From Phycisphaerae bacterium (GTDB lineage: Bacteria > Planctomycetota > Phycisphaerae > Phycisphaerales > UBA1924): a DNA stretch of 64,000 nucleotides. Positions 5,145-57,089 of this stretch are shown piece by piece (position 1 is the first letter of the stretch; each line of letters begins with the position of its first letter). Under the pieces are notes generated by a model, which saw only the letters and a program-made list of their open reading frames with translations, ran no database searches and had not been told where the DNA came from. The translations under genes were made by a program, and so were the position numbers. The DNA lies in NCBI GenBank assembly GCA_030429705.1, contig JAUIES010000005.1, forward strand, positions 1 through 64,000, in the 5' to 3' direction.

Positions 5145-5251
5145 GATAGAAGTATATCAGTCGAATACGATTGATACAGCGTGCGTCAGATATTTTTCAA
5201 GAATCAACATTTCGACGATCTCAGACGGCGTCTGCCCGTTGCGGTTCTGAT

Positions 5252-7118: not shown

Positions 7119-7121
7119 GGT

Positions 7122-39944: not shown

Positions 39945-42128
39945 TCAAGGCAGTTGAATATGGAGGCGTTTGCCATCTATGCCGGTATCGACTATTTCCT
40001 TGCCGTCGGGGTGAAGGAGGCGGACGCGGAGAGCGCGGTCTGGTCTCGGTCGATTGCCTTCAGTGGCAGCAACCCAGACGCGGACGATGTCGCCGGTGCG
40101 GGCTGCCGAATAGGTCGTCTGGAGAAAGTCGCCTTCGCGATATCCCCAGCCTTCACCGGCATCTTCATAGAGTGTGCCACGGGCCCGACCGTCGGCATCG
40201 AGATTGATGATGAGCGTGACGGGGTCGAGCGGCTTCTCATCAACGAACTCCATCACCGGGCCGGTGGGGAGAATCGTGCCGGGCTTGAGGTAGAGAGCGG
40301 GTTGGTCGGGGTCTTTGCTGTCGCGGCCGCCGTCAAAACTGGGGAAGTCGAACGCGCGCCATTCGACGCCTTCGATTGGTTTGGGCAAGACCACAAGCCG
40401 ATCACGGGCGGGTTGGATCTGTGCGACGACGAGCAGCCCTTCGCCGAGGAGGAATGCGTCGTCTTCGGTGCGCAGGGCTTGATCGGTGGGATCTGCAAAG
40501 AACGCCGGGCGGGCGACAGGCATGCCGGTGAGGGAGGCTTCACGAAACAGCGTGTAGAGATGGGGGATCAGGCGGTATCGGCGTTCGAGAGCGCGGCGGC
40601 TGGTGGCTTCAATTTCCGGACCAAACGCCCAGGGCTCTTTGTCGATATTCCCTTTGGCCGTATGACCACGGGAGAAGGGGAGGAGTGCGCCAAAGCCGAT
40701 CCAGCGGGCGAAGAGTTCGGGCTCGCCGTTGCCCGCAAAGCCCCCGATGTCAGGACCGGTGAACGGCTGCCCACTGAGCCCGAGGTTAAGTGTCATCGGA
40801 ATGGACACATCGAGGTGGTACCAGTCTGCGGAGTTGTCACCGGTCCAGGTTGCCGCGTATCGATGCCCTCCCATGAAGTTCGCCCGGCTGAGCACGAACG
40901 GACGATTGTCGGGATTCGCCTTCATGACGCCCTCACGCGTCGCCTGCACCATGAGCATGCCATAGACATTGTGATAGCGAGCGTGGGTGTCGGGGCCGCC
41001 GAGGGTTTGGTCGGCTCGGTGCCAGTTGCTCTCGGGCATGGTCTTGGTGGGGGTGTTAAAGACAGCAGGCTCGTTCATGTCATTCCACACACCGGAAATA
41101 CCGTGAGCCATGAAGGGTTCGTAGAGATCTGCCCACCATTGGCGGACGGCGGCGTTGGTGTAATCGGGGAAGACGCACATCCCGGGCCAGACTTCGCCCT
41201 CAAAAGTCGTGGTTTTGTCGGCGGTTTTGACCCAGACATCGGCAGCCTCGCCTTGGTCATAGATGCTGTAGCCCTGTTCGAGTTTGATGCCGGGGTCGAT
41301 CATCCAGACATTGCGGAAGCCCTGATCGAGCAACTTTTTGTTGAGGTCGGCGGGACTCGGAAAGTCTTCTGGATCAAAGGTGAAGCATCGGTAGCCGTCC
41401 ATGTAGTCGATGTCCATCCAGATGACATCGGCCGGGATGTCGCGGTCGCGAAATTCCCTTGCGATCTCTTCGACGCGGGTTGCGGGATCATACGAGTATC
41501 GGCATTGGTGGTAACCGATCGCCCATTTGGGCGGCATGGTGATCGTGCCGGTAAGCGTGCCAAGTTGTCTGACGACATCCTGCGGCGAATCACCCTGCAA
41601 CACATAGACCGGCTGGGGGGGACCGACGGCGCGGAATGTGATGCCATCGGTCAGGTCAATTTCGCATCGGTCTGTGGTGTCGGCCAGCACGCCGTAGGCC
41701 GTCCCATCAGCACGGACGGCAAGTACCCACGGGTGCGATGTGTAGAGGCTTCGGTCGTCGTCCATGTAGCCATAAGCATCGGTGTTCCATGTTTCGACGG
41801 TTCGTCCGGTGCGTTCGAGTTGGCCGGCGACTTCGCCTGTACCATAGAGCGATGTGCCCGGACTGGTTTCGATGGAGGCAGTCCAGCGGTCGCCTGATTG
41901 ACCGAAAACGACATTGACCTGTGAGTCGTCAAGAAAACGACCAGTGATCTCGAGAGGCTCGACGAGAGCAAACGACGGCCGGGCACTTTGTTGCGACTCT
42001 TCACTTGCATGGTGGACAAGCACCCCGCTGGAAGTGATTTCGACGATGGCATCGTTCGCGCGTGTCGTCGTGGGCGAGAACACAAAGGTGTACAGGAGTG
42101 TTGATGCAAGAATGAGGCGTGAAAGCAC
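39945..42128 (-). CDS. Exported glycoside hydrolase family 31 (alpha-glucosidase type)
   Basis: The 727-residue product has a signal peptide (residues 1-24) and all GH31 landmarks: WMDIDYMDGYRCFTFD (about 237-252), the catalytic nucleophile Asp350 in GVWNDMNEP and the acid/base Asp431 in WTGDNSADW. The C-terminal beta domain is complete. It should release glucose (or xylose) from alpha-glucans outside the inner membrane. It diverges from the dockerin-tailed GH13 gene over 184 bp containing a palindrome and a possible promoter, so the two may be regulated together. Confidence 0.95.
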   Translation of the reverse strand: MLSRLILASTLLYTFVFSPTTTRANDAIVEITSSGVLVHHASEESQQSARPSFALVEPLEITGRFLDDSQVNVVFGQSGDRWTASIETSPGTSLYGTGEVAGQLERTGRTVETWNTDAYGYMDDDRSLYTSHPWVLAVRADGTAYGVLADTTDRCEIDLTDGITFRAVGPPQPVYVLQGDSPQDVVRQLGTLTGTITMPPKWAIGYHQCRYSYDPATRVEEIAREFRDRDIPADVIWMDIDYMDGYRCFTFDPEDFPSPADLNKKLLDQGFRNVWMIDPGIKLEQGYSIYDQGEAADVWVKTADKTTTFEGEVWPGMCVFPDYTNAAVRQWWADLYEPFMAHGISGVWNDMNEPAVFNTPTKTMPESNWHRADQTLGGPDTHARYHNVYGMLMVQATREGVMKANPDNRPFVLSRANFMGGHRYAATWTGDNSADWYHLDVSIPMTLNLGLSGQPFTGPDIGGFAGNGEPELFARWIGFGALLPFSRGHTAKGNIDKEPWAFGPEIEATSRRALERRYRLIPHLYTLFREASLTGMPVARPAFFADPTDQALRTEDDAFLLGEGLLVVAQIQPARDRLVVLPKPIEGVEWRAFDFPSFDGGRDSKDPDQPALYLKPGTILPTGPVMEFVDEKPLDPVTLIINLDADGRARGTLYEDAGEGWGYREGDFLQTTYSAARTGDIVRVWVAATEGNRPRPDRALRVRLLHPDGKEIVDTGIDGKRLHIQLP

Positions 42129-42209
42129 CGGCGAGTCCTCCAGTCCAAGATCTTTCGTTCTCGGACGAATGTACGGGGTGATTCTGAGGCTGACAACGGC
42201 GGGTCGGTG

Positions 42210-42236
42210 ATGAAACTGTGTTCACACGAGTTTCAT
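42210..42236. promoter_or_regulatory. Candidate operator palindrome between GH31 and GH13 genes
   Basis: ATGAAACT (42210-42217) and AGTTTCAT (42229-42236) form a perfect 8-bp dyad around 11 bp, which itself contains GTG...CAC, so with one bulged base the symmetry extends further. It sits next to the possible promoter of the amylase gene, a typical place for a sugar-responsive repressor. No regulator gene lies beside it. Confidence 0.45.
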
Positions 42237-42265
42237 TTGGTCACACCCGTCGAATAGACTATAAC
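42237..42265 (+). promoter_or_regulatory. Candidate sigma-70-type promoter of the GH13 amylase gene
   Basis: TTGGTC (42237-42242) and TATAAC (42260-42265) are spaced by 17 bp. The -10 matches five of six consensus positions; the -35 is weak. Transcription would start near 42272, about 40 bp before ATG 42313. Confidence 0.4.
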
Positions 42266-42312
42266 CGGGGAACTTCGGACCGGCTTTGCTGGCGATCAAG
42301 GGAGAAACGGGT

Positions 42313-45057
42313 ATGTGGATTCGACGCACGCTGACGGCTGGATTTTCGACGGTGGTGATGCTTGCTGCTGCGGATCACGCTGCGGCCCAAGCGAACCCGG
42401 TGATTTTGCAGTGGTTTGAAACCGAGTGGGACGATATCGAACGACGGATGCCAGACTTTTTCCTTGCCGGCTATGGAGCAGTCTGGCTTCCGCCACCCTC
42501 GAAAGCGTCGTATCAGAGCCCGGGCTATGACCCGTTCGACCGATTTGATCTTGGTCAGCCCCCGATTTTGGCGACAGGTTCGGGACGCGCCCGGACGACT
42601 TACGGCACCGAACAGTCTTTTCGTGCGATGGTTGACGAGTTTCATCGGGCCAACGCGCTCGTATACATCGATGCGATCCTGAATCACAACTCCGGTCGTA
42701 CGACTTCCGATGCGTTTCTGGAGCAGGGCGGTTGGCCGGGGTTCTGGATCCCTCGTGAAAACCCGGCGCGTGACAAGTTGCCGACCGACGACTGGGGCGA
42801 TTTCCACGGTGGTAATGGAGCAGGGTTTCTTCAATCTGAAAACCCAGGGGGGGCAAACTATCATCTGACAGATGGCGATCTGGTCGCGCTTATCGATATT
42901 GCACCTGCAACGAACCATCAGTTCATCCGCAACCCTGTGTCTGCCGGCGATCCGCTCAATATCCCGGCCGGGACCCTGTACAACAAGCCAGACCCGAAGA
43001 ATGCGCGGACCTACCCCGACACAAATCTTGCTCCGGTATGGATTGAGAACCCGGGGACGAGTCGAAATGAGGGCTGGAGTTACTACCGGTTTCCGTTCAA
43101 TACAGCCAATGAGTCTGCCGGGGATGCGGTTACAGAGAATACAACCGGGTATTTGATTCGTTGGGCCAGGTGGATGCACGAGGTCCAGGGGATCGACGGC
43201 ATGCGCCTCGATGCACACAAGCACATGCCAACATGGTTCTGGGATACCTTTTTCGATGCAGCGGTGCATCAGGCAAGAATCGACCCCAGGGGTGAGCGTG
43301 TGAATGCCTTCACCTTTGGTGAAAATGTGGCTGGCAACTTCGATATTCTGGCGAATTACACGCGGAAGGATGCGTTTGCGACGCGCGACTCGCTGGATAT
43401 TCAGGGGTCGGCACGATTGCGAGAGATCGTCAACGCCGGCGGATTTGGATCGTGGGGGGGACTATTTTCCAATGCCGACACGGCACTGCTCGATGTCGCG
43501 GACAATGGTATCTCGGATGGTTCGCTCGGCGTCGCTCATGTGTTCAGCCATGACAATGGAACGGCGGGCGATGGCACGGCGATGCCGGTCATCCCGAGTG
43601 TGCGCCAGCGCGGCTATCCGCAGCAGGCATTCCTGTTGATGCGTCCGGGTCGCACGATCGTGTATCACCACGGCCGGGGCGTCCCGCGATCAGGCGGATT
43701 CTTCCCGCGCGAAGGAATTCCGAACGCGCTCGGGCATGAGCCGATCGGGAATACGCTCGACGACACCATGACGAATCTCGTTCAGTTGCACAATCAGATC
43801 GGGATCGGCGAATACAACCAACTCAATAGTTCGATCAGCGATGTACTGGTCTATGAACGAGCGACGAATGGCATGGCGAACTGCCTGGTTGCGGTCAACG
43901 ATCGATTCGACGCTGGCGTCAACACGATCACGGTGACCACGCAGTATGCAGCCGGCACACGCCTGCACGAGCAAACCGGCAATGCAAGCGACGCGACTGT
44001 GGATCCGACCAATGCAATTCCTCAAGTCCTTGTTGTTGGAAGTGGGGGGCAGGTCACGCTGACTGTGCCACGCAATGTCTCGACGACCGGCACAGAACAC
44101 GGCAGGGGATTTGTCGTGTATTCAGAAGCGTTACCCAATGGCACGCTGACTGTTTCGAATCAATCGGGTGTCGTTCCGGCGGACCCGGCACACTTCCCGC
44201 CGTTCTTCCGCAGGTTGAATGCGATTCCTGTTGTGTCCGCCGACACATTCCGCATTACGCTCGCCACTTCGCAAGCGGATTCACAGGATCCGAACACGGA
44301 TGACAACGCCCTGTTCAAGATTGACGCGGGTGTTGTCGATCGCAATGGCAGCGGCGGCGATGATTTCCCGTGGGTCAACCCGGTGTTGCGCGGTTACGAA
44401 CAGTTTCTGACCATCAACGCTCCGACTTTTGGTTCGGGTGGCACGACTGGGACTTATTCACAGGACATCGACGCGACCGGTCTGGATGAAGGATTTCACT
44501 ACATCTCGACGATCGCGTTTCGCCATCGACCCGCGTTTGCGTCGCCGTTGTTCCGCGAGTGGCGTGAAGTGGTCTATATTGATCGATTAGAAGCGCCGTT
44601 GGATGTGCCCGGCCTCGGTGAGCCGCTGACCGACCCATCGTTCGAGTTCCGGATCCTCAATCCAGATCGAACGGTCACTGGTGTTCACACCTTCCTCGAC
44701 CTCGATTCGACCGATGATCCGGTCGCGATGGCCAGCGTTTTTAATGCCGCCACAAAATGGGATCGTTCGGAGTGGCGTCGCGCTTTTGATGCACCGATGT
44801 CTGATGGCTTGCACAGACTGACCGTTGTCGCGTTCGAACACTCAGGTCGCGCGACCGTCGTTGAGTTGCCGTTTCAGGTCGGAGATTGCGTCGTCGATTT
44901 CGCTGAACCCTTCGGCGTGCTCGACTTCTTCGATGTGGCAGCATTTCTCAGTGCTTTTGCCGGTGGTGACTTGGCTGCAGACCTGACGGGTGATGGCTTG
45001 CTCGATTTCTTTGATGTTGCAGCGTTCTTGAGTTCGTTCAGTGCTGGTTGTCCGTGA
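42313..45057 (+). CDS. Secreted GH13 alpha-amylase with GC-type dockerin-like tail
   Basis: The 914-residue product has a signal peptide (cleavage after HAAAQA, about residue 26) and a GH13 catalytic barrel with DAILNHNS (120-127), nucleophile Asp300 in GMRLDAHKH, acid/base Glu337 in TFGENVAG and Asp414 in FSHDNG. Two or more beta domains follow. The end is a Cys-flanked tandem of LDFFDVAAFLS (residues about 872-912), a GC-type dockerin-like module of Phycisphaerae. It probably anchors or sorts the enzyme outside the cell. The start at 42313 has AAGGGAG upstream. The 3' end overlaps the convergent GH13 gene by 20 bp. Confidence 0.93.
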   Translation: MWIRRTLTAGFSTVVMLAAADHAAAQANPVILQWFETEWDDIERRMPDFFLAGYGAVWLPPPSKASYQSPGYDPFDRFDLGQPPILATGSGRARTTYGTEQSFRAMVDEFHRANALVYIDAILNHNSGRTTSDAFLEQGGWPGFWIPRENPARDKLPTDDWGDFHGGNGAGFLQSENPGGANYHLTDGDLVALIDIAPATNHQFIRNPVSAGDPLNIPAGTLYNKPDPKNARTYPDTNLAPVWIENPGTSRNEGWSYYRFPFNTANESAGDAVTENTTGYLIRWARWMHEVQGIDGMRLDAHKHMPTWFWDTFFDAAVHQARIDPRGERVNAFTFGENVAGNFDILANYTRKDAFATRDSLDIQGSARLREIVNAGGFGSWGGLFSNADTALLDVADNGISDGSLGVAHVFSHDNGTAGDGTAMPVIPSVRQRGYPQQAFLLMRPGRTIVYHHGRGVPRSGGFFPREGIPNALGHEPIGNTLDDTMTNLVQLHNQIGIGEYNQLNSSISDVLVYERATNGMANCLVAVNDRFDAGVNTITVTTQYAAGTRLHEQTGNASDATVDPTNAIPQVLVVGSGGQVTLTVPRNVSTTGTEHGRGFVVYSEALPNGTLTVSNQSGVVPADPAHFPPFFRRLNAIPVVSADTFRITLATSQADSQDPNTDDNALFKIDAGVVDRNGSGGDDFPWVNPVLRGYEQFLTINAPTFGSGGTTGTYSQDIDATGLDEGFHYISTIAFRHRPAFASPLFREWREVVYIDRLEAPLDVPGLGEPLTDPSFEFRILNPDRTVTGVHTFLDLDSTDDPVAMASVFNAATKWDRSEWRRAFDAPMSDGLHRLTVVAFEHSGRATVVELPFQVGDCVVDFAEPFGVLDFFDVAAFLSAFAGGDLAADLTGDGLLDFFDVAAFLSSFSAGCP

Positions 45058-46645
45058 TGTCGATGACATAGCCGGTGTAGGGGGCGAGTTCGAGCACCGG
45101 ATAGATCGAGTTTGTTGTAACCGGACTGCTGTGCAAGAGTTCGCGGGCAGGTTCGCCATGGGCCGGGTGGATGCGATAGTCCGCGATTGGTTGGTCGGAG
45201 AGATTGACGACGATCATGAGCGATTCGGTGGCTGTCGTTCGCTCATACGCAAGCACCGCGTCATGAGCAGTTTCAAGAAGGGTGAACGAACCGATCGAGA
45301 GCGACTTGTGTTTCGATCGGAGGCGAATAAGCCGACGGTAATGATTGAGCAATGAACCATCCCGCTCGTCCTGCACCTCGACATTGACGGTTCGAGTGTT
45401 GTTGTTGAGTTCCCGCCAGGGCTTGCCCGTCGTAAAACCGGCATGACTTGCGTCACTCGTCCATTGCATCGGCGTACGGATATCTGGGTCAGGTTTGGTA
45501 CCGGTCATGCCGATTTCTTCGCCGTAGTAGATGAAGGGCGTGCCGGGGAGTGTCATCAACAGCGTGGCTGCCAAAGCGGACCGCTGCATCGATCCGCCAA
45601 GTCGGTCCAAGATGCGGTCCATATCATGGTTGCCGATGAATGTGCTGAAGTCGTCAAAACGACCGGTCTTGTCGAGGTCCGCCAATGCTGTAACAAGGAA
45701 TGAAGTGTCGGACCCATTGATTGAAGACTGGATGGCGCTCGCAAGCGGGAACGCAAAGGCCGAGTCAACTCCACGCTCGATATAGCGATTGATCGTGTCG
45801 AGGTCAGACCAGACTTCGCCGACGAGGAATGCGCTTGGCTTTTCACGATGCATGGCAGTGTTGTAATCGGCAAGCCAATCGAGGGTCTCCGGCGTGTTTT
45901 CAAAGGTCACGCCGTCTTCGATCAGGTGTTTTATCGCATCGAGCCGGAGCCCATCAGCGTGCATATCGGTGAGCCAGAATTTCGAAAAATCATGGATCAT
46001 GGCTGTCGCGTCGGGTGAGCGCAGGTTGAAGTCCGGCATGCCATGCCAGAACCACCCGTAGTACATCATCCCGTTCTGCTGCTGGAACTGCGGGTGCCAG
46101 ACTGTGTGCTGCGGCTCACCCGGGCCGCGTGCGGGGGCATCGGTCCAGACGAACCAATCGTGTGTTTCTGAGTCAACAGAAACAGCCTTCTGAAACCACG
46201 GGTGTTCGATCGAACAGTGATTGATGACGGTATCGACGATAACCCTGATGCCACGCGCATGACAAGCATCCATCAATGCCAGAAAATCGGCCTCGGTGCC
46301 GTATTCAGGATCGACTTCTTTGTAGTTGGTGACATCGTACCCGTGGTAACTCGGCGACTCTGCAATGGGCATGAGCCAGATCGCGGTGATGCCAAGATCG
46401 GTGGTTGTAGCCGGGTCGCCGTCGTTGAGGTAGTCGAGCCGTTCGATGATGCCGCGCAGATCGCCGATGCCGTCTCCAGCGAGCGGGCCGGTCGTCGAGT
46501 CAGCAAATGATCGGACGAAAATCTCATAGAAGACAGCATTACGCCACCAGTCGGTTATCTCAGTTGATGTGAAGGGCGATGCCCAGGCAGAGGACAGACC
46601 TGTCAGGCAAGCTGTCAGTGTAAAACTATTGATGAAGGACTTCAT
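45038..46645 (-). CDS. Exported GH13 alpha-amylase/alpha-glucosidase
   Basis: A 535-residue enzyme with a signal peptide (MKSFINSFTLTACLTGLSSA...), barrel landmarks DTVINH (138-143), nucleophile Asp236 in GLRLDAIKH, acid/base Glu277 in LVGEVW and Asp341 in IGNHDMDR, and a short C-terminal beta domain. It resembles oligo-alpha-glucoside-cleaving amylases rather than the dockerin-tailed neighbour. AGAGAGG precedes ATG 46645. It probably works on the maltodextrins released by the neighbour; the two genes converge with a 20-bp overlap. Confidence 0.94.
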   Translation of the reverse strand: MKSFINSFTLTACLTGLSSAWASPFTSTEITDWWRNAVFYEIFVRSFADSTTGPLAGDGIGDLRGIIERLDYLNDGDPATTTDLGITAIWLMPIAESPSYHGYDVTNYKEVDPEYGTEADFLALMDACHARGIRVIVDTVINHCSIEHPWFQKAVSVDSETHDWFVWTDAPARGPGEPQHTVWHPQFQQQNGMMYYGWFWHGMPDFNLRSPDATAMIHDFSKFWLTDMHADGLRLDAIKHLIEDGVTFENTPETLDWLADYNTAMHREKPSAFLVGEVWSDLDTINRYIERGVDSAFAFPLASAIQSSINGSDTSFLVTALADLDKTGRFDDFSTFIGNHDMDRILDRLGGSMQRSALAATLLMTLPGTPFIYYGEEIGMTGTKPDPDIRTPMQWTSDASHAGFTTGKPWRELNNNTRTVNVEVQDERDGSLLNHYRRLIRLRSKHKSLSIGSFTLLETAHDAVLAYERTTATESLMIVVNLSDQPIADYRIHPAHGEPARELLHSSPVTTNSIYPVLELAPYTGYVIDITDNQH

Positions 46646-46739
46646 GTGCGCAACCTCTCTTGCCAGTCGAACGGGACGAGTGATTGTATTCATCGGTGCG
46701 ACAGCCTTGCATCGCTCGGCTATAGGGCAACAATACGAC

Positions 46740-47165
46740 ATGGTTGATCAGCACGCTTCGGACAGTCCGTTACCCATTCGTGGAACTGAAAATCGACTGG
46801 TGGATGATGTAAATGCATTGATCTCCGAGTCGTTGATTCGCCAGTTGGTCGAGTCGTTTTATGGGCGAGTCATCCGTGATGAAACGCTTGGTGCCATTTT
46901 CGACGGAGCTGTCGCTGATTGGCCGACGCATTTGTCGAAGATGTGCGATTTCTGGTCGGCCGTAGTGCTGCAATCCGGGCGATATGCTGGTCGACCGCTT
47001 GAGGCTCACCAAGCGCTTGATGCGATTCAACCAGAGCAATTCGATGATTGGCTTCAACTTTGGGAAGCCGTGGTTCAGGAGGTTGTGCCGAATCCGGTGC
47101 AGAGTCAGTTCATCGTGCCCGCCCAACGGATGGCGAGCCACATGCGTCGTCGCCTGTTTGCCTAG
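46740..47165 (+). CDS. Group III truncated haemoglobin
   Basis: The 141-residue product matches the group III (P) truncated haemoglobin pattern, as in Campylobacter Ctb: Tyr41 of SFYGRV at B10, His64 of WPTHLSKM near E7, KMCDFWSAVVLQSG and the proximal His90 in PLEAHQAL (F8), followed by Trp104 in FDDWLQLW. Such proteins bind O2 or NO and may help in oxygen delivery or detoxification. ATG 46740 excludes upstream codons that belong to the amylase control region. It ends overlapping by 4 bp the convergent redox operon. Confidence 0.92.
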   Translation: MVDQHASDSPLPIRGTENRLVDDVNALISESLIRQLVESFYGRVIRDETLGAIFDGAVADWPTHLSKMCDFWSAVVLQSGRYAGRPLEAHQALDAIQPEQFDDWLQLWEAVVQEVVPNPVQSQFIVPAQRMASHMRRRLFA

Positions 47166-47914
47166 TCGATCGGCGTGATGTGTGCTGCGGTTGTATCGAG
47201 CACGGGTAAGCCGCCAGATTCGCTCAGCCAACCTTCAATGCGGACAGGTTGGGCAACGAGCGCCAGGACCGCCGGTTCCAGTTTCGTCGAGCCGTCCACA
47301 CGCAGGAGCGGGAAGAGCGATTCGGTTGGTGTGTTATTCGTAACGACAAGCGGGGGGAGCCCGCCCATGAGGCACAGCGTGGCGCACGCCTTGTGCGTCT
47401 TGCCGTCGCCAGGCTTCATGGCCCCGAGGTAGCATTTGCCGTCAACGATTTCAGTGATGAGTGTGATTTGTCTCCGGGTGTTCGTTGAGTTGCCTCGTGG
47501 GACTGTTTGGTCATGAATTGCTGCAATTGCGTCGAGGTCTGGACTGAGTTCGATCATGCGCCGCGATGCTCGGGCAAGTCGATACCCCTTGACGCGACAT
47601 GACATGTCGGCAAACGGCGAAACCCGGTCGGCAACGCCGTACTTGCCCATGCCAACAATCAAATATGAACCTTCGCCTTCGACCTCAAGCATCGGATACG
47701 GCTCAAGCCGAATGACACCGGACCAGTGTTGTTCAGCAGCACTATCCCAGACGGCCGGTCCTGGGTTTCGTTGCGTTGTCGTCAGGATGACGGCCATCAC
47801 GCCGAGCCAACAGAACAGACCCGTGACCAATAAACGCACGAACTTGCGGTGCCGAGCAGAGAGCGGCAAATAGCCGACATAGATGGTGTGACCGGGGGTG
47901 GATTGTTCAGGCAT
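47162..47914 (-). CDS. Membrane-anchored Cys-motif protein in redox operon, unknown function
   Basis: The 250-residue product has one membrane helix (about residues 27-47) and a periplasmic domain. Its most striking feature is KCYLGAMKPGDGKTHKACAT (residues 160-179) followed by CLMGGLPP, giving Cys161, His174, Cys177 and Cys181 arranged like a metal or cofactor site. I do not know the family name. The ATG at 47914 is preceded by AAGGTGG and overlaps the Rieske gene's stop by 8 bp. It is the last gene of the four-gene redox operon. Confidence 0.72.
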   Translation of the reverse strand: MPEQSTPGHTIYVGYLPLSARHRKFVRLLVTGLFCWLGVMAVILTTTQRNPGPAVWDSAAEQHWSGVIRLEPYPMLEVEGEGSYLIVGMGKYGVADRVSPFADMSCRVKGYRLARASRRMIELSPDLDAIAAIHDQTVPRGNSTNTRRQITLITEIVDGKCYLGAMKPGDGKTHKACATLCLMGGLPPLVVTNNTPTESLFPLLRVDGSTKLEPAVLALVAQPVRIEGWLSESGGLPVLDTTAAHITPID

Positions 47915-48989
47915 GCAAACCACCTTCTAGATCCGGAATCGGCGCCGGTTTCGTGGGTGTGCCCGGAGGATTTGGATCAGGATTGAGCAGGACGGACCGC
48001 CCTTCGATCCGTACATCGAAGGTTGGTATCTTCTCCGTATAGGGTGGGGGGCTGCACCCATCTTCAGGGTTGTATTGGTACCCATGCCATGGGCATGTGA
48101 TACAGCCTCCGACAATTTGACCTTCTGCGAGTGGGCCGCCCTGATGCGCACACACATTGGAAACCGCACGGAATCCGTTCTCATGGCGGTAGAGTGCGAT
48201 TCGTTCACCATTTGGGATCGAGACGAGTTTGGCCGAGCCTTCTGCGATCTCGTCGATGGTGGCTGCGACGATCCAGCCGTCGGCATCCGCGGCGGGCTCT
48301 GGGTCGGTTGGTGTGTGATCGCGCGCCCGCTCGTGCAGGCCGGCGAGCAGATGAAGCGTCGATACAAACGCCACACCAATCGCAACAACCACGGCGTAGA
48401 TCGGGCTTGTTTCGCTTTGCAGCGCTCCGAGCAACACATGGGCCACGACCAGTCCATATGCCAGATAGACCAACATATGGAGTGCTTTCCAGGTCCGGTG
48501 GCCGAGATTGGCGAGCCAGAAGTCATGACTGGTTGCAGCCATCGCGAAGAAGATGACCAAAGCAAACAGCCCGAGAAACTCGAATGGAAACGAACTGACT
48601 TTGTTGAATCCTGTGGGTAGCAGGACGATCGCGGACACGGGGTTTTGCAACCCAAATCCACCATAGTACAGTGTCGCCAGAACCGCATGAAACAGGGCGA
48701 CAACGAAAAACGCCACACCAAGGTGTCTTCGGTTGTAGAGAAGGGGGGCTGCGAGATCAGTCCACCTGGATATCGGGCCGATGCAGAGAATGATGTGCAG
48801 TAGCAAGAACGCAAGTGTGCTCAGGCCGCGGATCAGGAGGATCGGGAGATCAATTTGATTGGGGGGGCTGTGTGTCAACATGCCAACCCCGACGAAACAC
48901 CCCAAGTAAGTGACGATGAGTGTGATGAGTATCAGGTCGTAGGTGCGCTTGTGGCTGTTCCATTGCACCCAGCGATATGCATTGGTCAC
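47907..48989 (-). CDS. Ferric-reductase-like membrane domain fused to a Rieske [2Fe-2S] domain
   Basis: The 360-residue fusion has six or so helices of the ferric-reductase/MsrQ type with candidate haem ligands (His65, His101, His171, His184), then from about residue 237 a Rieske domain with cluster ligands Cys280 and His282 (CAHQGG) and Cys299 and His302 (CPWHGY). It could pass electrons from the membrane through haem to a periplasmic or cytoplasmic partner, depending on topology. Joining these two modules in one chain is uncommon to my knowledge. The start overlaps the upstream small gene (ATGA). Confidence 0.9.
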   Translation of the reverse strand: MTNAYRWVQWNSHKRTYDLILITLIVTYLGCFVGVGMLTHSPPNQIDLPILLIRGLSTLAFLLLHIILCIGPISRWTDLAAPLLYNRRHLGVAFFVVALFHAVLATLYYGGFGLQNPVSAIVLLPTGFNKVSSFPFEFLGLFALVIFFAMAATSHDFWLANLGHRTWKALHMLVYLAYGLVVAHVLLGALQSETSPIYAVVVAIGVAFVSTLHLLAGLHERARDHTPTDPEPAADADGWIVAATIDEIAEGSAKLVSIPNGERIALYRHENGFRAVSNVCAHQGGPLAEGQIVGGCITCPWHGYQYNPEDGCSPPPYTEKIPTFDVRIEGRSVLLNPDPNPPGTPTKPAPIPDLEGGLHA

Positions 48990-49150
48990 GGTGATCCTCC
49001 GGGTGCCACTGGATCAGGTGACGGTTGTTCGATGTCCCCGAGCAATGTTCGGTCAGGACGAAGAGTCAAGAGCACAATGGTGCCGACGATAAGCACCGGC
49101 GCAAGCAGGACCCAGGTCCGAAAGTGCCGACGACGCAGGACGCGTTCCAT
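48986..49150 (-). CDS. 54-residue single-helix membrane protein in redox operon
   Basis: The product has a basic N-terminus (MERVLRRRHFRTW), one membrane helix (residues 14-30) and a Pro-rich C-terminus. No family is known to me. The ATG overlaps the stop of the upstream gene (TAATG), and its own stop overlaps the Rieske fusion gene (ATGA), so all are translationally linked. Such tight coupling in a conserved-looking order supports a real gene despite its size. It may be an assembly subunit of the redox complex. Confidence 0.7.
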   Translation of the reverse strand: MERVLRRRHFRTWVLLAPVLIVGTIVLLTLRPDRTLLGDIEQPSPDPVAPGGSP

Positions 49151-49383
49151 TATTCTTGCTCCGGTATTCGCTCTGGTTTTGTCAAAGTTGCCCATCGGCG
49201 GAGCAGAACCGGCCACACAACGACGACCCCGGGTAGCAACAGCAACCGCACATGTTTCGGGGATCGCACCGTCGCGGGATCGATCGCTTGTATGCCTCGG
49301 CACAGAAAAGGCACGGCAAATGCCATGCCCAGCACGGCATAAACGGCGAGTCCGACGAGGAGGAACAAGATGACATGCGACAT
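49150..49383 (-). CDS. 77-residue two-helix membrane protein, first gene of redox operon
   Basis: The product has two hydrophobic helices (about residues 4-25 and 44-59) joined by a loop that carries FLCRGIQAIDPATVR, then LLLPGVVVVWPVLLRRW. This pattern resembles small proteins seen near Rieske and ferric-reductase-like genes in several bacteria (my recollection, not searched). ATG 49383 is the likely start. It overlaps the next gene at TAATG. The operon's promoter should be in the 281-bp gap above it, shared with the histidine kinase on the other strand. Confidence 0.72.
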   Translation of the reverse strand: MSHVILFLLVGLAVYAVLGMAFAVPFLCRGIQAIDPATVRSPKHVRLLLLPGVVVVWPVLLRRWATLTKPERIPEQE

Positions 49384-49664: not shown

Positions 49665-51491
49665 GTGAGTCCACGCAACACATTCATGAGGCAAGTAGAT
49701 CAGATGTCGCGGACTGGTAATCAGAATATGACGGTCGTCAACTCGAAGGAACGAAGCCGCCTTGAGCGATCGGGACGACTGCACTGGTTCCACTGGGTGG
49801 TGGTGGGGCTTTCTCTCGCATTGACCTTGGGTGCGTGGCAGTTTTCAAAGAAGCAAGTCCACAAACAGGTCGAGCGGCAGTTTGATCGCGAATACACACA
49901 GGTGATCGCGCTCGTGAAAGAACGCATGATCAAGTACGAAGATGCGCTCTGGGCCGGCGTGGGTCTCTATAGCGCGTCGTCGCAAGGCGTTGATCTTGAC
50001 CAATGGAAACGGTACAGCGAGAGCATTCGCATCGAGCAGAAATACCCCGGCATCATGGGTATCGGTGTCATTAAGAATATTCCGATCGGAGAGTTGGGCT
50101 CTTTTCAACGAGCGCAACGCGAGGAACGACCTGGCTTCACGGTCTACCCAGAACACGACCGCGATATCAGCATGCCCATCACCTACATCGAGCCGATTGA
50201 GGACAATGATCCCGCCGTCGGTCTTGATATGGCTCACGAAACGAATCGATTGACGGCTGCGCTGCGAGCACGCGATACTGGCACGGCGCAGATCACCGGT
50301 CCGATTGTTCTGGTGCAAGACTCTGCCCGTACACCAGGTTTCCTGTTTTTTGCGCCCATGTATTCCAACGGAGCCAGGTCTCTCGACGAGGCTGAAGGCT
50401 CTGAGTTTACAGGGTTGGTGTATGCCCCGTTTGTAGTGCAGCGATTGATGGAAGGTACTCTGGACGACGAGAATCGGCATGTTGGCATTCGGTTAAGCGA
50501 TGGCGATGAGCCGCTGTACGATGAGTTGATCTCTGACGAGGATGACTTTGACGATGATCCACTCTTCAAGCGATCTGAGTCAGTCGCCATGTTTGGTCGT
50601 GAATGGAATTTTGATATCTGGAGTTCCAAATCGTTCCGAGTTGCGCAGCAGAGCACACAGCCTCAGATGATTCTCATTGGCGGGATCATCATCGATTGCC
50701 TGCTGATCGGGCTCTTCGTCTTGCTGACGCGTGCAAATCGATATGCGCTCGCGTATGCAGATGATGCGACTGCCAAGTTGCAGGATCGAAACGGAGAACT
50801 CGAGCAGTTTGTGTACACAGCGTCACATGATCTCAAATCACCTCTGTTGACGATTCAGGGTTTCGCTGGATTGCTGCAACACGATATTAAAGTTGGCGAA
50901 CAGGGCCGTCTGCACGAGTTTGCCGAACGCATACAACAGGGTGCGGATCGAATGCGACGGAATATTGACGACCTGTTGGAGTTGAGTCGAATCGGTCGGG
51001 TCGCAGACGAGCAACAGGTCATCGAGCCGTCCAAGATGATTGAGCAGTTGGTGGCCGAGTTTGAATCGCAGATTGAAGATGCGCAGGCGACGGTGTCGAT
51101 CCAGCCCGACATGCCCTTGATCACTGCAGATGCCGATCGCATCAGACAGGTTTTCGCCAACTTACTAGCCAATGCGCTGAAGTATGGCACGCCGGAGATG
51201 GGTCAGATGCACATCTCGATTGAGGGCGTTTTAAGTGAGCATGAAGTTCAATTGTCACTTTCCGACAATGGGCCGGGCATCGATCCGATGTATCGAGAGA
51301 AAATATTTGGGTTGTTTCAGCGGCTTGAATCAGAGGCCGAAGGTACGGGCGTTGGTCTGGCGATCGCCAAGCGCGTTGCCGATGTCCATAACGGTCGAAT
51401 CTGGGTCGAGGATGCACCGGGTGGGGGGGCAAAGTTCGTTCTTGCGATCCCGCGTCAGGCCTCACAAGAGCGAATGAGAAAGGCAGCATGA
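49665..51491 (+). CDS. CHASE-domain histidine kinase
   Basis: The roughly 608-residue protein has an N-terminal helix, a periplasmic CHASE sensor domain (about residues 85-290, with PGIMGIGVIKNIPIGELG and FAPMYSNG), a second helix near residue 330, a HisKA domain (phospho-acceptor His near residue 388 in TASHDLKSP) and an HATPase_c domain (NALKYG, NGPGIDP, GTGVGLAIAKR). CHASE domains sense small extracellular ligands. The GTG start is uncertain; ATG codons at 49686, 49704 and 49728 lie in frame, and none has an ideal ribosome binding site. The response regulator gene overlaps its stop (ATGA). Confidence 0.93.
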   Translation: MSPRNTFMRQVDQMSRTGNQNMTVVNSKERSRLERSGRLHWFHWVVVGLSLALTLGAWQFSKKQVHKQVERQFDREYTQVIALVKERMIKYEDALWAGVGLYSASSQGVDLDQWKRYSESIRIEQKYPGIMGIGVIKNIPIGELGSFQRAQREERPGFTVYPEHDRDISMPITYIEPIEDNDPAVGLDMAHETNRLTAALRARDTGTAQITGPIVLVQDSARTPGFLFFAPMYSNGARSLDEAEGSEFTGLVYAPFVVQRLMEGTLDDENRHVGIRLSDGDEPLYDELISDEDDFDDDPLFKRSESVAMFGREWNFDIWSSKSFRVAQQSTQPQMILIGGIIIDCLLIGLFVLLTRANRYALAYADDATAKLQDRNGELEQFVYTASHDLKSPLLTIQGFAGLLQHDIKVGEQGRLHEFAERIQQGADRMRRNIDDLLELSRIGRVADEQQVIEPSKMIEQLVAEFESQIEDAQATVSIQPDMPLITADADRIRQVFANLLANALKYGTPEMGQMHISIEGVLSEHEVQLSLSDNGPGIDPMYREKIFGLFQRLESEAEGTGVGLAIAKRVADVHNGRIWVEDAPGGGAKFVLAIPRQASQERMRKAA

Positions 51492-51955
51492 CAAACATGA
51501 CTCGCGACCGTGGCATGAATCCAGAAGGGCAGTTTCACTTTTTACTGGTTGAAGATGATCAGACTCATGCCGATCTCATTCGATTCTCCCTTGAGTCACA
51601 TGAGACTTCATGTACCTTGAGCCATGTTGTTGACGGAGCGGCTGCAGTGGCATTTATGCGACAAGAGGGCAAGTACGCCGACACACACAAGCCTCATGTT
51701 GTGCTGCTTGATTTGAATCTGCCCAAGTTGAACGGGCTGGAGGTTCTGGAGATCATCAAGTCGGACCCCGATCTCCAGCACACACCGGTGATCGTTTTGA
51801 CGACCTCGGCCAGTGAGGGGGACCGAAGCCAGGCATATCTGCGGCACGCGAACAGTTTCCTGACCAAACCACTCGATTTCGGTCTCCTCCAGAAGATGAT
51901 GGCCGATGTTCAGCGTTACTGGACGCAATGGAATCAGCCTTTGACGACTAACTAG
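51488..51955 (+). CDS. Single-domain response regulator
   Basis: A 155-residue receiver of the Rcp1/CheY-like type without output domain. The acidic pair Asp23/Asp24, phospho-acceptor Asp75 (VVLLDLNLP), and Lys127 (SFLTKPLD) are in place. It must act by protein contact rather than DNA binding. The ATG overlaps the kinase stop and has GAAAGG a few bases upstream. The pair makes a classical two-component module. Confidence 0.95.
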   Translation: MTNMTRDRGMNPEGQFHFLLVEDDQTHADLIRFSLESHETSCTLSHVVDGAAAVAFMRQEGKYADTHKPHVVLLDLNLPKLNGLEVLEIIKSDPDLQHTPVIVLTTSASEGDRSQAYLRHANSFLTKPLDFGLLQKMMADVQRYWTQWNQPLTTN

Positions 51956-52046: not shown

Positions 52047-52448
52047 ATGGATCGTCTGATTGCCATCTTGATTGCCGGAGCGATACTCGCGGTCCCTTTG
52101 CAGTCTTCACTCTGGAAAGCGTGTGCTTGTTGTACAGGCGTGCAGTTTCCGCTGGAGTCCATGGCGGCAGGCGATGCAAACGATCAAGCCGACGCGTGCT
52201 GCATTCTTTCAGAAGACGCGCAGTATCTACCTGAAGAACAAGAAAAAGAGCAACCCTGCGATCAACAAGATTGCCCGATGACCTGCTGCTCGGCCACGAT
52301 CTCATTTGCGTTGTCCATCAATGCGGTTGACAGCACCGAAGTTGAGCAGGACGAGATCGCGTTTCAGTGCTTCCCGACGATCAAACCCAACTCACGACAT
52401 GTCGCTGAGTTGAAGCGGCCCCCGAGACCCATGACCCTGCCTTGCTGA
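52047..52448 (+). CDS. Small exported Cys-rich protein, unknown
   Basis: The 133-residue product has a signal peptide-like N-terminus (residues 1-20) and clustered cysteines: ACACCTG, ACCILSE, PCDQQDCPMTCC, plus two more near the C-terminus. The central part is acidic. The pattern suggests metal binding or disulfide-linked structure in the periplasm. I do not recognise a family. It lies 51 bp upstream of an adaptor/ABC operon and may be its first gene. Confidence 0.65.
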   Translation: MDRLIAILIAGAILAVPLQSSLWKACACCTGVQFPLESMAAGDANDQADACCILSEDAQYLPEEQEKEQPCDQQDCPMTCCSATISFALSINAVDSTEVEQDEIAFQCFPTIKPNSRHVAELKRPPRPMTLPC

Positions 52449-52499
52449 GTAAGGTGCGCGCTTCGTGCGCGGTTGTCATGGTGTTTTTGAGGGTTCTTC

Positions 52500-54059
52500 A
52501 TGTCTATTCAATCTGTCGATATGCGTCACCGGCGCAGCGGTCCGCCGCGCCGTTTCGTGGCGTTCGTTGTGCCACTTTCCGTCACTGCAGCGTTGGGGTG
52601 TGCGCTTATGTGGAGCGCGTGGCCTCTCTTGCAGCCGGAGCGCGAAGTGCGCGTGGTGCAGGCGGTGCCGGACCGTGCGTCTTTGACGGCTGATGTCGTT
52701 CCGACTGCTGATTCTGTGATCTCAGCGCCGGCGGTGCAGGCACCGGGGTGGTTAGAAGCCGAGCCGTTTTACATCGCTTGCGCAGCGCTGGCCGACGGTG
52801 TCGTGCAGAGCATCGAGGTTCTTGAAGGCGAGTATGTAGAAGCGGGTTCGGTTGTTGCCAAATTGGTAGCCGAAGATTCGGAATTGCGACTTCGTCGCGC
52901 CGAGGCAGAGCTGTCAGCGTCGATCGCTTTTCTCGCGATTGCAAAGGCAGAACTTGAAGCCGCCACTCGGACCTGGGACGAACCGGTCGAACTCGAGCGA
53001 GCCGTTGAATCAGGCGAAGCAGCGGTTATGGAGCACGAGAGCGAGTTGGCGCAGCTCCCGTCCTTGCTTGCATCTGCCCAAGCGACCTTGAAGGGATTGG
53101 ATGAAGAGGCTGCAAGGGTTCGACGATCCACCGAACGCGGTGCGACGAATGAACTCGAGTTGATTATTGCCGAAGCGCGTGCAGCCGCCCAGCAGGCCGA
53201 TGTCGAAGCGATCGAGGCCCGACGACCGATTCTGCAGGCCCGCGTTCAACGACTCAAGGCTGAACTGCGAGCAGCGCGCCGCGATCTGGAGTTGCGCATC
53301 GCCGACCGGCGCCGTCTCGAGACAGCTCTGTCAGAGGTCACGCGGCGAGAAGCAGCCGTCGAACAAGCCAAGGTCAGCCGCGATGAGGCAGCACTCGAAC
53401 TTGAGCGGATGACGATTCGTGCACCGATCTCAGGGTTTGTGCAAACACGGCTGAAAGTACCCGGAGACAAGGTGATTCTGATGATGGATTCACCGCACTC
53501 GGCGCATCTTGTTCACCTGTACGATCCGCAGCGTTTGCAGGTGCGCGTCGATGTGCCACTTGCAGACGCGGCGTACATCGCCGTTGGCCGTCAATGTGAA
53601 GTTATTGTCGATGTCTTGCCCGATCGTACATTTGCGGGTGAAGTCCTTCGGGTTACGCACGAAGCGGATCTTCAGAAAAACACGCTGCAAGTGAAAGTGA
53701 AAGTCATCGATCCGGATCCGATTCTTCGGCCTGAGATGCTCACACGCGTCAAGTTTCTAGCGGGTACAGGAGGCTCGGGCGCGGTTGGTTCGACTGAACA
53801 GCAGTATCCGCGCACATTGGTTCCTGCTCAGGCTCTCGTGGAACAGGACGGGATCACGCAGGTCTGGACAGTTGTCGATCGCCGTAACGGGCACGGCGTG
53901 CTCCGTCCGCAACGCGTCGAAGTCGTTGAGCGAGCGGAAGGCTGGCTGACGGTCACGGGCGATCTGCACGCGGGGGCGTTGATTGCGGTTGACATCGAGA
54001 ATCCTCGGTCGGGTGAACAGGTGTTCGTTCGCAGCACTGCAGCTGGGGGGTCATCATGA
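52500..54059 (+). CDS. HlyD-type periplasmic adaptor (membrane fusion) protein
   Basis: The 519-residue product has one N-terminal helix (about residues 18-40), a biotinyl-lipoyl-like first half (ADGVVQSIEVLEGEYVEAGS near residue 98), a long alpha-helical hairpin rich in Glu, Ala and Arg (residues 125-300) and a beta-barrel part with TIRAPISGFVQTRLKVPGDK. It links an inner-membrane pump to the outer membrane or to a periplasmic partner. It is coupled by ATGA to the ATPase gene. GAGGG precedes the start. Confidence 0.92.
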   Translation: MSIQSVDMRHRRSGPPRRFVAFVVPLSVTAALGCALMWSAWPLLQPEREVRVVQAVPDRASLTADVVPTADSVISAPAVQAPGWLEAEPFYIACAALADGVVQSIEVLEGEYVEAGSVVAKLVAEDSELRLRRAEAELSASIAFLAIAKAELEAATRTWDEPVELERAVESGEAAVMEHESELAQLPSLLASAQATLKGLDEEAARVRRSTERGATNELELIIAEARAAAQQADVEAIEARRPILQARVQRLKAELRAARRDLELRIADRRRLETALSEVTRREAAVEQAKVSRDEAALELERMTIRAPISGFVQTRLKVPGDKVILMMDSPHSAHLVHLYDPQRLQVRVDVPLADAAYIAVGRQCEVIVDVLPDRTFAGEVLRVTHEADLQKNTLQVKVKVIDPDPILRPEMLTRVKFLAGTGGSGAVGSTEQQYPRTLVPAQALVEQDGITQVWTVVDRRNGHGVLRPQRVEVVERAEGWLTVTGDLHAGALIAVDIENPRSGEQVFVRSTAAGGSS

Positions 54060-54760
54060 GTTTGATTGAATGTCGACAACTGACGCGCGAATACAAGAAG
54101 GGTGACACGACAATCAGGCCGCTCGACCAACTCGACCTTGATGTTCCGGCAGGAGACTTTCTGGCACTGATGGGGCCGAGCGGGAGCGGCAAGACAACGC
54201 TGCTCAATCTGATCGCGGGTATCGATTCACCCACGAGCGGCTCTCTTGTGATCAAAGGCATCGAGATCGGCGCTCTACGCCGCAACGCGCTCGCTGCCTG
54301 GCGTTCGGAGCAGGTTGGGTACATTTTTCAACTCTACAACCTCGTCCCGGTCTTGACAGCATATGAAAATGTCGAGTTGCCGCTGCTCATTCATCGATTA
54401 TCGCGAAGAGATCGCGACCAACGCGTGATGGCTGCCCTCGAACAAGTCGGCATCGCGGATCGGTCTGAACATTACCCGCGACAACTCTCCGGCGGGCAGG
54501 AACAGCGGGTTGCGATTGCACGGGCCATCGTGACAGACCCGGCGATCATCGTGGCAGACGAACCAACGGGCGACCTCGACAAACAATCGGCTCATGCGGT
54601 GATGGTGCTGCTGCAAGAACTGAATCAGAAACTCGGCAAGACCATCATCATGGTCACGCACGATCCACATTCAACAGACTACGCCAAGCGGACGCTGCAT
54701 CTTGACAAAGGCAGACTCGTTGAACTCGGCGTTCCATCACTTAAGGAGGTGGCATCATGA
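54056..54760 (+). CDS. MacB/LolD-type ABC ATPase
   Basis: A 234-residue ATPase with Walker [10 protein letters not shown] (about 40-48), signature [15 protein letters not shown] (one residue from the usual GGQQQR), Walker [13 protein letters not shown] and an H-loop in VTHDPHS. It works with the two permeases after it in a mechanotransmission-type transporter. It overlaps both the adaptor and the first permease genes by 4 bp. Confidence 0.95.
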
Positions 54761-55908
54761 CACTGTTCCGTTGTTTACCGTATGTGTTCAAACAGGTCGT
54801 ACGGTACCGCGTGCGGTCGCTATTGACTGTTGCAGGTATTGGGATCGCGATGTTTCTGTTTACCGCAGTGCAGGCGATGAACAGCGGTGTGACGGCGGCA
54901 ACCGAGGCGACCGCAAAGGACACCGTACTCGTGGTGTATCGCGAAGATCGGTACTGCCCGGCGACGAGCCAGTTGCCGCAGGACTACCAGCGCCGAATCG
55001 AGCAGGTCGAAGGTGTGACGAGTGTAACGCCGATGAAAATCGTCGTGTCGAACTGTCGCACGAGTTTGGATGTGGTGACCTTTCGCGGTGTTCCCAAAGA
55101 TACATTTTTGAATGAGCGGAAAGGTGCGATCGAGGTGATCGAAGGCTCGGTCGAGTCGTGGATGAGTCGCACCGACGCAGCCCTTCTGGGCGAAACTCTC
55201 GCAACACGGCGAGGGCTCAAGCCGGGGATGACTTTCGACGCTGCGGGGATTACTGCGTATGTCGCGGGGGTGATTCGATCGGACAATTTGCAGGACCACA
55301 ATGTCGCGTACACGGCGCTCGAGTTCGTCCAACTTGCCGGACGAGATCAACTTGGGATCGTGACACAGTTCAATGTCAAGGTTGAAGATTCTTCCATGCT
55401 CGACCGTGTCGCGGAAGATATCGACGAAGTCTTTCAAACAGCGCAAGAACCGACCGCGACATTCAGCGAAAAAGCGTTCATCGGTCGTGTGGCAGACGAC
55501 ATCATCGAACTTGTCGGATTTGCGCGCTGGCTTGGGCTCGGCTGCCTCGCTGCGGTCCTCGCCCTCGTGGCGAATTCAATCATCCTGGGTGTCCAAAGCC
55601 GTGTTTCTGAACATGCTGTCTTGCAGACGCTGGGCTATTCTGGTCGGCTCGTTGCCGCGTTGATCATGGCAGAGGGGATCGTGCTTGCTGTGATCGGTGG
55701 CGCGATCGGCGCAGCAGCTGCCTTGGGCGTTGCGCGGTATGGCAACTTTGCACTTTCAGTTGAAGGAGCGTCGATTCCGATCGTCGCCGATGTGCGGCTG
55801 CTTGTGACAGGACTGTTGGTCTGTGGGATCATCGGTGTTCTAGCCGGGCTTGTCCCTGCCTGGCAGGCATCCAGGCGCGAGATATCGGCGTGTTTTCGAG
55901 CGATGTAG
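54757..55908 (+). CDS. FtsX/MacB-type ABC permease, first
   Basis: The 383-residue protein has the four-helix FtsX architecture: one helix near residues 20-40, a large periplasmic domain and three C-terminal helices from about residue 250. The motif ILGVQSRVSEHAVLQTLGYS is typical of the cytoplasmic loop. The periplasmic part contains Cys in RYCPATSQLP and SNCRTSL. The start overlaps the ATPase stop with a perfect AAGGAGGTGG upstream. Confidence 0.93.
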   Translation: MTLFRCLPYVFKQVVRYRVRSLLTVAGIGIAMFLFTAVQAMNSGVTAATEATAKDTVLVVYREDRYCPATSQLPQDYQRRIEQVEGVTSVTPMKIVVSNCRTSLDVVTFRGVPKDTFLNERKGAIEVIEGSVESWMSRTDAALLGETLATRRGLKPGMTFDAAGITAYVAGVIRSDNLQDHNVAYTALEFVQLAGRDQLGIVTQFNVKVEDSSMLDRVAEDIDEVFQTAQEPTATFSEKAFIGRVADDIIELVGFARWLGLGCLAAVLALVANSIILGVQSRVSEHAVLQTLGYSGRLVAALIMAEGIVLAVIGGAIGAAAALGVARYGNFALSVEGASIPIVADVRLLVTGLLVCGIIGVLAGLVPAWQASRREISACFRAM

Positions 55909-55916
55909 TGAACACC

Positions 55917-57089
55917 ATGCGGCAACTCCCATTCCATTATGCGTTTCGCAACCTGGGTCGAAGTGGTGTACGGCTCTGCGCGTCACTGGTTGGCTCGTCG
56001 CTTGTCGTGTTACTTGTGCTCGCGTCAGGCGGTTTCATTCGCGGCATGCAACTGACGCTGACACAAGATGGCGGATTGCATGAGAATGTCATGATCCTCG
56101 GCACGGGTAGTGAAGAGGGGGTCGAGCGATCGCAGATCGGGGGATCGGTCGAGAGCATTGCTGCGGCGAGTATTCCAGGGCTCAAAGAACAAGCGGGTGT
56201 CGTGTATGCATCGCCGGAGATTCATGCTGCCTTACCGGTGCGCGAGCAGCGTGACAGTTCTGTCGATCTTGCGGCTGTGATGCGGGGAGTGCGGCCGGTC
56301 GCATTTCTTGTCCATCCGGAAGTAGAGATTATTGAGGGCCGAGCGCCACGAGCCGGGCTCGACGAACTCATGGTTGGGCAACTCGCGTCAACCAGACTTG
56401 GCGTTCCATATGAAAGGCTCGCGGTCGGGCAGACACTGCATTTCGATGATCGGGACTGGACGATCGTCGGCCGGTTTAGCGCACCAAACACCGTCATGAA
56501 CGCCGAGATATGGCTCCCTCTCCCTGATCTTCAGATCGCAACCAACAGAGAAGCCTCGATTTCGTGTGTTGTGGTCACACTCGATCAAGCGACTTTTCCC
56601 GATGCGGATTTGTTCGCCAAGAGCCGACTCGATCTTGAGATTACCGCCCTGCGCGAGCGTGACTACTACGCGTCGATTGCGGCATTTTATGCACCGATTC
56701 GGATTATGGTGCTCGTGACGGCTGTGCTCATTGCGTCGGGCGGTATTTTGGGGGGGCTCAACACAATGTATGCTGCGTTCGCTGCGCGCGTGCGCGAAGT
56801 CGGCATGTTGCAAGCCTTGGGGTACACCCGTCTTGCGATCGTTTTGAATCTCATGGAAGAATCGGTCTTCGCGTCCGCTTGCGGGACGTTAATCGGATCT
56901 GTTGTAGGGGTTGTGTTGCTTGACGGCCTGGCTGTCAAGTTCTCGATGGGTGCATTCGCGCTCACCATCGATCCACCTGTTTTGTTGACCGGAATCATCG
57001 GAGGCCTCTTGGTCGGTTTCGTCGGGGCAATCCCCCCGGCGATTCGTTGTCTCCGGCTCCCGATCACGGAAGCACTGAAATCGTACTAG
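55917..57089 (+). CDS. FtsX/MacB-type ABC permease, second
   Basis: A 390-residue paralogue of the preceding permease with the same four-helix layout (AAFAARVREVGMLQALGYTR in the conserved loop). With its neighbour it should form a heterodimer with the ATPase. ATG 55917 follows the first permease's stop by 8 bp; frames starting upstream (GTG 55890) overlap. The last codons end just before the lipoprotein gene's ribosome binding site. Confidence 0.92.
   Translation: MRQLPFHYAFRNLGRSGVRLCASLVGSSLVVLLVLASGGFIRGMQLTLTQDGGLHENVMILGTGSEEGVERSQIGGSVESIAAASIPGLKEQAGVVYASPEIHAALPVREQRDSSVDLAAVMRGVRPVAFLVHPEVEIIEGRAPRAGLDELMVGQLASTRLGVPYERLAVGQTLHFDDRDWTIVGRFSAPNTVMNAEIWLPLPDLQIATNREASISCVVVTLDQATFPDADLFAKSRLDLEITALRERDYYASIAAFYAPIRIMVLVTAVLIASGGILGGLNTMYAAFAARVREVGMLQALGYTRLAIVLNLMEESVFASACGTLIGSVVGVVLLDGLAVKFSMGAFALTIDPPVLLTGIIGGLLVGFVGAIPPAIRCLRLPITEALKSY

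Follow-up and report, generated by a model that had tools for sequence, protein, structure and literature searches.

A conserved four-gene cassette encoding a Rieske-extended MsrQ-type membrane protein and a double-OB Cys/His protein, a candidate transmembrane electron-transfer unit

Four overlapping genes, P1 to P4, on the minus strand of a 64,000-nucleotide stretch of a Phycisphaerae bacterium genome (contig JAUIES010000005.1, positions 1 to 64,000, hereafter the window) constitute a genuine, conserved four-gene cassette. We consider it probable, though well short of assured, that their products form one membrane complex that carries electrons from the cytoplasm to the periplasm, with P4 as the acceptor. 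The computed basis of this model comprises the open reading frames (ORFs), their linkage, residue conservation, domain families, P3-P4 fusions and the predicted fold of P4; topology, cofactors and the outward direction of electron flow are what we infer, the direction from topology and by analogy with MsrQ. The first-pass annotation had read the locus as a membrane electron-transfer unit, which fits the retention of the cassette across phyla and the strict linkage, and sometimes fusion, of P3 and P4.

All four minus-strand ORFs and the convergent globin ORF announced by the first-pass annotation are present in the window. P1 (49150..49383, 77 aa) encodes a membrane peptide, P2 (48986..49150, 54 aa) a single-helix peptide, P3 (47907..48989, 360 aa) a ferric-reductase-like protein with a Rieske domain, and P4 (47162..47914, 250 aa) an anchor helix followed by two OB-type domains. 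Overlap at every joint holds as described, with 1 bp shared at P1/P2 (TAATG), 4 bp at P2/P3 and 8 bp at P3/P4 (ATGCCTGA); the P2/P3 joint, however, had been quoted as ATGA and is actually GTGA, P3 starting with GTG. On the plus strand, genes for a histidine kinase with a CHASE domain and for a response regulator (49665-51955) diverge from the cassette; they begin some 280 bp upstream of P1 and could control it. The region 39945-46741 carries carbohydrate genes, namely one glucosidase-like and two alpha-amylase-type genes, one of the latter being a weak match with dockerin-like repeats at its C-terminus.

A P3 search of a species-level genome collection returned 248 encoding places, the best 80 of which were used for locus comparison; among these, the closest relatives of the P3 from our source genome (3.49 Mb, 96% complete) belong to Phycisphaerales. 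P4 homologues lie after P3 in 79 of the 80 loci and P1 homologues before it in 75, on the same strand and in the same order. The cassette is kept across at least seven phyla (Planctomycetota, Acidobacteriota, Verrucomicrobiota, Kiritimatiellota, Bacteroidota, Cyanobacteriota and Pseudomonadota), and its small ORFs have homologues as well. On Rhizobium plasmids, where both P1 and P2 are present, it is annotated as a "Rieske 2Fe-2S domain-containing protein" and "hypothetical proteins". Within a 294-genome panel of the phylum, a full-length P3 is adjoined by a full-length P4 in 20 of 20 genomes, the remaining P3-profile matches being essentially the Rieske domain alone. Phylum labels change seven times on the P3 tree, the minimum being six, and the distances between P3 proteins correlate with those between P4 proteins (r = 0.72), which points to an old unit inherited mostly with the lineage.

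Two loci encode P3 and P4 as a single ORF, one from Acidobacteriota (L064, 623 aa, -6 to +1865 relative to the P3 start) and one from Planctomycetota (L090, 636 aa, 5156-7066). Because both fusions join the C-terminus of P3 to the N-terminus of P4, these two ends should lie on the same membrane face, and the fused proteins make good targets for structural work. Elsewhere, a 135-aa remnant of the P4 C-terminus adjoins a Rieske-Glu_synthase gene (L095:4519-6583, genome G016); no full-length P3 was found in that genome, and the remnant is perhaps a decayed cassette.

The two tiny ORFs are not there by chance, given the constant position of P1 and the recovery, in 60 of the 75 P1-bearing loci, of a P2-like single-helix ORF with the motif R-R-x-H; P2 is too short for a reliable similarity search, which yielded 19 matches among the best 80 of 248 loci. 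P1, which has no significant family match in Pfam or NCBIfam, is probably a two-helix hairpin in the membrane, with Y15, G19, D35, P51, W57 and P58 invariant or nearly so. In P2 the R-R-x-H motif precedes the single helix, and its N-terminus is predicted to face the inside. Other lineages carry a longer P2 with a periplasmic beta domain; its resemblance to DM13, suspected by eye, found no support, as neither Foldseek nor Pfam at E values of up to 10 returned a match.

The gene that converges on P4 (46740-47165, plus strand, 4 bp shared) does encode a group III truncated haemoglobin, as first annotated (Pfam 6e-6; closest solved structure 2ig3, E = 6e-17). The proximity of this genuine globin had suggested that the unit serves O2/NO chemistry jointly with it, but the gene lies on the opposite strand, no homologue was found within 5 kb of the cassette in any of the 80 relatives (the best 80 of 248), and none was found in the cassette regions of ten further planctomycete genomes. 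A joint O2/NO role thus seems scarcely credible; the globin was discarded as a subunit and, judged by these comparisons, is a neighbour only, outside the complex.

P3 matches PF01794 (Ferric_reduct; 2.3e-12, 47.5 bits against a cut-off of 28), which places it in the FRD superfamily, and PF00355 (Rieske; 6.5e-16). Ferric_reduct and Rieske-type matches are its only ones in Pfam, without any FAD- or NAD(P)-binding dehydrogenase domain. Hydropathy over 81 sequences predicts six membrane helices within residues 19-218 (48336..48935, minus strand). Escherichia coli MsrQ uses haem to carry electrons across the membrane to the periplasm; profile alignment with it (hhalign, E = 7.6e-7 over 132 columns) reveals R87, R88, H101, W167, H171, Y175 and H184 as shared residues, and P3 stays below the cut-off of the MsrQ equivalog NF003831 (43.6 bits vs 130). 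Canonical FRD proteins bear four haem His in TM3 and TM5, and short forms such as YedZ two or three, according to the accessible text of a survey (PMC3591440). P3 lacks the full four-His set in TM3 and TM5 and displays the YedZ signature instead, in which Arg (R87) replaces the first His and three remain (H101, H171 and H184). Of the four candidate haem His proposed by the first-pass annotation, these three match MsrQ, whereas the fourth would be H89 or H155, both invariant among the P3 family and absent from MsrQ. The likely ligand pairs are H101/H184 and H171 with either H89 or H155, so that the sequence would allow for one or two haems.

The Rieske domain of P3 (residues 239-324; 48018..48275, minus strand) has the ligand pattern C280xH282 ... 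C299xxH302 and a profile match of the ferredoxin type; the four ligands are invariant across the family, and its closest PDB relatives are dioxygenase ferredoxins. Since the positive loops of the six-helix core fall on the N- and C-terminal side, the domain is predicted to be cytoplasmic. Overall, P3 appears to combine a six-helix haem-b domain of the MsrQ/YedZ type with a C-terminal Rieske domain of the ferredoxin type. Its identity as a bc1-type Rieske protein was discarded in view of the ferredoxin-like cluster motifs (CAHQGG and CPWHGY) and of the predicted cytoplasmic location of this C-terminal domain.

P3 is the sole match to PF00355, and the sole match to PF01794, in the source genome, which suggests that this species has no Rieske-type bc1 complex. 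The uniqueness of this Rieske protein, together with the wide and mostly lineage-bound distribution of the system, could be expected of a unit that feeds respiration or an oxidase, or that oxidises a periplasmic donor and sends electrons inward. Such a role is nonetheless improbable in our view, as the Rieske domain is of the ferredoxin type and cytoplasmic by topology, unlike that of bc1/b6f, and the cassette neighbourhoods (best 80 of 248) lack any recurrent oxidase or quinone module.

The acceptor in the outward model would be P4, whose predicted structure (pLDDT 91.8) consists of one N-terminal anchor helix and two OB-type domains, the latter predicted to be periplasmic. Its signature region, D158-x-K-C161-x2-G-x-M166-x-P-x5-H174-x2-C177-A-x2-C181-x2-GG-x-PP (residues 158-188; 47351..47443, minus strand), contains the Cys161/His174/Cys177/Cys181 set at exactly the positions first claimed, and D158, C161, G164, M166, P168, H174, C177 and C181 are invariant in 77 homologues. 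In the structural model, H174, C177 and C181 share one helix (172-183), with the His and Cys on one face, and C161 sits on the preceding helix, which makes a common site plausible. The window P4 matched nothing in Pfam or NCBIfam, hence no molybdopterin domain of the kind expected of an MsrP partner, and nothing significant in the PDB by sequence or fold apart from generic OB folds. Weak similarity to DUF5818 (PF19135) was detected in 17 of the 77 family members (best 8.7e-5), P4 differing by its additional anchor helix, second OB domain and fixed redox-cassette setting; no useful literature on DUF5818 was found. Tat export, which would favour an Fe-S centre, was discarded for want of a conserved twin arginine. 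Insertion of P4 is therefore likely of the Sec type, and copper, another metal or thiols accordingly seem more likely than an Fe-S cluster in the periplasm.

From these elements a route can be proposed in which a cytoplasmic donor would first reduce the C-terminal Rieske cluster of P3, electrons would then traverse the membrane via haem b of the MsrQ-type six-helix domain, and this haem would hand them to the one-helix-anchored, double-OB P4. The Cys3-His(-Met) site of P4 would either accept the electrons or form the active site, most likely through a bound metal, with copper suspected, or a redox-active thiol, and P1 and P2 would act as structural or assembly subunits. As to the substrate, our guess is periplasmic metal/thiol redox homeostasis.

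One version of this general model casts the unit as a metalloreductase or metal-handling complex, in which Cu(II) or Fe(III) would be reduced at the Cys/His/Met site of P4, whether to export the metal, to take it up or to assemble cuproproteins. The P4 site domain also has standalone relatives, which are small secreted proteins, some with His-rich tails. Some of them adjoin efflux genes of the CusA/CzcA type, and examples beside metal-efflux genes are found at L122 (plasmid pPSMK1 of Phycisphaera mikurensis, 5893-7590), L097:4890-8603 and L098. The pPSMK1 relative has a His-rich tail and lies in a copper-efflux-type cluster, among genes for copper-binding, metal-regulator, TolC and RND-adaptor proteins. 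In R. binae the cassette is followed by a gene of the CopD family, and metal reductases are known among FRD proteins, as the accessible text of PMC3591440 indicates. However, metal contexts concern a minority of the standalone relatives examined, several having no metal neighbour, and no metal-efflux gene recurs around the cassette in most of the 80 loci. In the window itself, a plus-strand segment (52047-57089) encodes a Cys-rich 133-aa ORF and then an HlyD/MacAB-like ABC exporter, for which (52500-57089) a heavy-metal RND identity was discarded. We regard metal reduction as possible but doubtful. The pPSMK1 relative also adjoins a DUF2231 protein and a periplasmic-type Rieske protein, and the three possibly form a parallel redox module.

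In another version, P4 would be a thiol-based analogue of MsrP within a periplasmic repair reductase, reducing oxidised methionines, disulphides or peroxides, with P3 as an MsrQ-like feeder. The MsrQ-type membrane domain of P3, the three invariant Cys of P4 and the presence of dsbD, dsbA, peroxiredoxin-like and YHS genes in the Rhizobium cassette islands agree with such a function. Yet domain searches matched P4 to none of thioredoxin, MsrA, MsrB and MsrP, and the invariant His and Met near its Cys would suit metal binding equally well. Repair and metal reduction are the two leading candidates for the function, but we consider repair, taken by itself, unlikely.

Candidate cytoplasmic donors for the outward model are suggested by the longer operon of some planctomycetes, which runs Rieske-Glu_synthase, Rieske-thiamine-pyrophosphate (TPP) enzyme fusion, (DUF1622), P1, P2, P3, P4. 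The upstream pair, a Rieske-glutamate-synthase-like flavin protein and the Rieske-TPP enzyme fusion, is found at L092:2563-6554, L093:2877-6889 and L094:9217-12927, and a Rieske-Glu_synthase gene lies within 8 kb in 9 of the best 80 of 248 loci. The architecture of the Rieske-TPP fusion, on which no useful literature was found, looks unusual, and the enzyme may be an electron donor. Such fusions are missing from the source species, where P3 alone matches Rieske, and its genome also yielded no BphA4-type reductase (PF14759) as a donor.

Other genes recur around the cassette, mostly downstream. Among the best 80 loci, these encode YHS (16 loci), DoxX (13), DinB (21), TANGO2/NRDE (18) and VTT (19) proteins; they occur in several phyla, and the presence of each requires 6-11 changes on the P3 tree. 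A block YHS - DoxX - DinB - TANGO2/NRDE - VTT(+ATP-grasp-like), whole or partial, occupies the downstream flank at L020, L026, L029, L039, L045, L057, L058, L065, L067, L075-L077 and L079. No useful literature on the YHS and DoxX combination was found. In the window, neither these five genes nor Rieske-fusion genes are adjacent to the cassette. In the cyanobacterial loci (L047, L053, L066 and L074), the genes that flank the cassette encode an EamA transporter and an ATP-grasp protein of the GSH-synthetase type.

Known routes that bring reducing power to the periplasm are few (DsbD, MsrPQ, flavinylated systems and NOX-like proteins). If the model is true, the cassette provides another one, equipped with a donor module and an acceptor of its own. 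A broader proposal, which we advance tentatively and at a little less than an even chance, posits a widespread class of transmembrane electron-transfer complexes. In these, an MsrQ-type haem protein equipped with a Rieske domain would drive a new type of Cys3-His(-Met) centre, borne in the periplasm by a double-OB protein, and Rieske-flavin and Rieske-TPP enzymes of the cytoplasm would serve as alternative donors. Three of the four cassette proteins are unnamed in the databases searched, despite their presence in so many phyla and on Rhizobium plasmids. Because cultured organisms carry the cassette (Rhizobium strains, Moorena bouillonii and Agaribacillus aureus), its function is directly testable.

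The first-pass annotation knew of no described complex of this composition, and our literature search, which covered few subscription papers, likewise found no description of the P1-P4 cassette. The Rieske of bc1/b6f complexes is a high-potential, periplasmic protein with a disulphide Cys pair (CTHxGC/CxCHGS), a pair that P3 lacks in its predicted cytoplasmic C-terminal domain. NOX and STEAP proteins share with P3 an FRD membrane core that carries electrons across the membrane, but P3 has a Rieske domain in place of an FAD/NADPH dehydrogenase or F420-type module, and the proposed destination of its electrons is a dedicated partner protein, not O2 or a free metal; bacterial NOX (PMC5676040) is likewise different from the cassette. 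Flavinylated MsrQ-like systems also pair a PF01794 membrane protein with an extracytosolic redox partner, yet they rely on ApbE-attached FMN-binding domains (PMC8238504), whereas no FMN_bind domain was found in P1-P4 with Pfam. Bacterial FRD proteins with a Rieske module were listed in 2013 as an electron-transfer extension, domain model M4 (PMC3591440), which in the accessible text of that paper is a bare mention of architecture that also names an FMN domain and includes no operon, P1, P2 or P4. The Rieske-FRD architecture was thus already known to that extent, and what appears to be new is the four-gene cassette with P1, P2 and P4.

The closest parallel in organisation is MsrPQ (YedYZ), which reduces methionine sulphoxide in the periplasm of E. 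coli. Both systems have a six-helix MsrQ-type haem protein with a conserved R-R ... H and W ... H ... Y ... H pattern, a gene for the periplasmic partner that adjoins it, and an outward electron flow, which for P3-P4 is proposed. They differ in that P3 bears its own Rieske domain, absent from MsrQ, and the additional invariant H89 and H155, in that P4 is a double-OB Cys/His protein where MsrP is a molybdoenzyme, and in that the cassette adds two small subunits.
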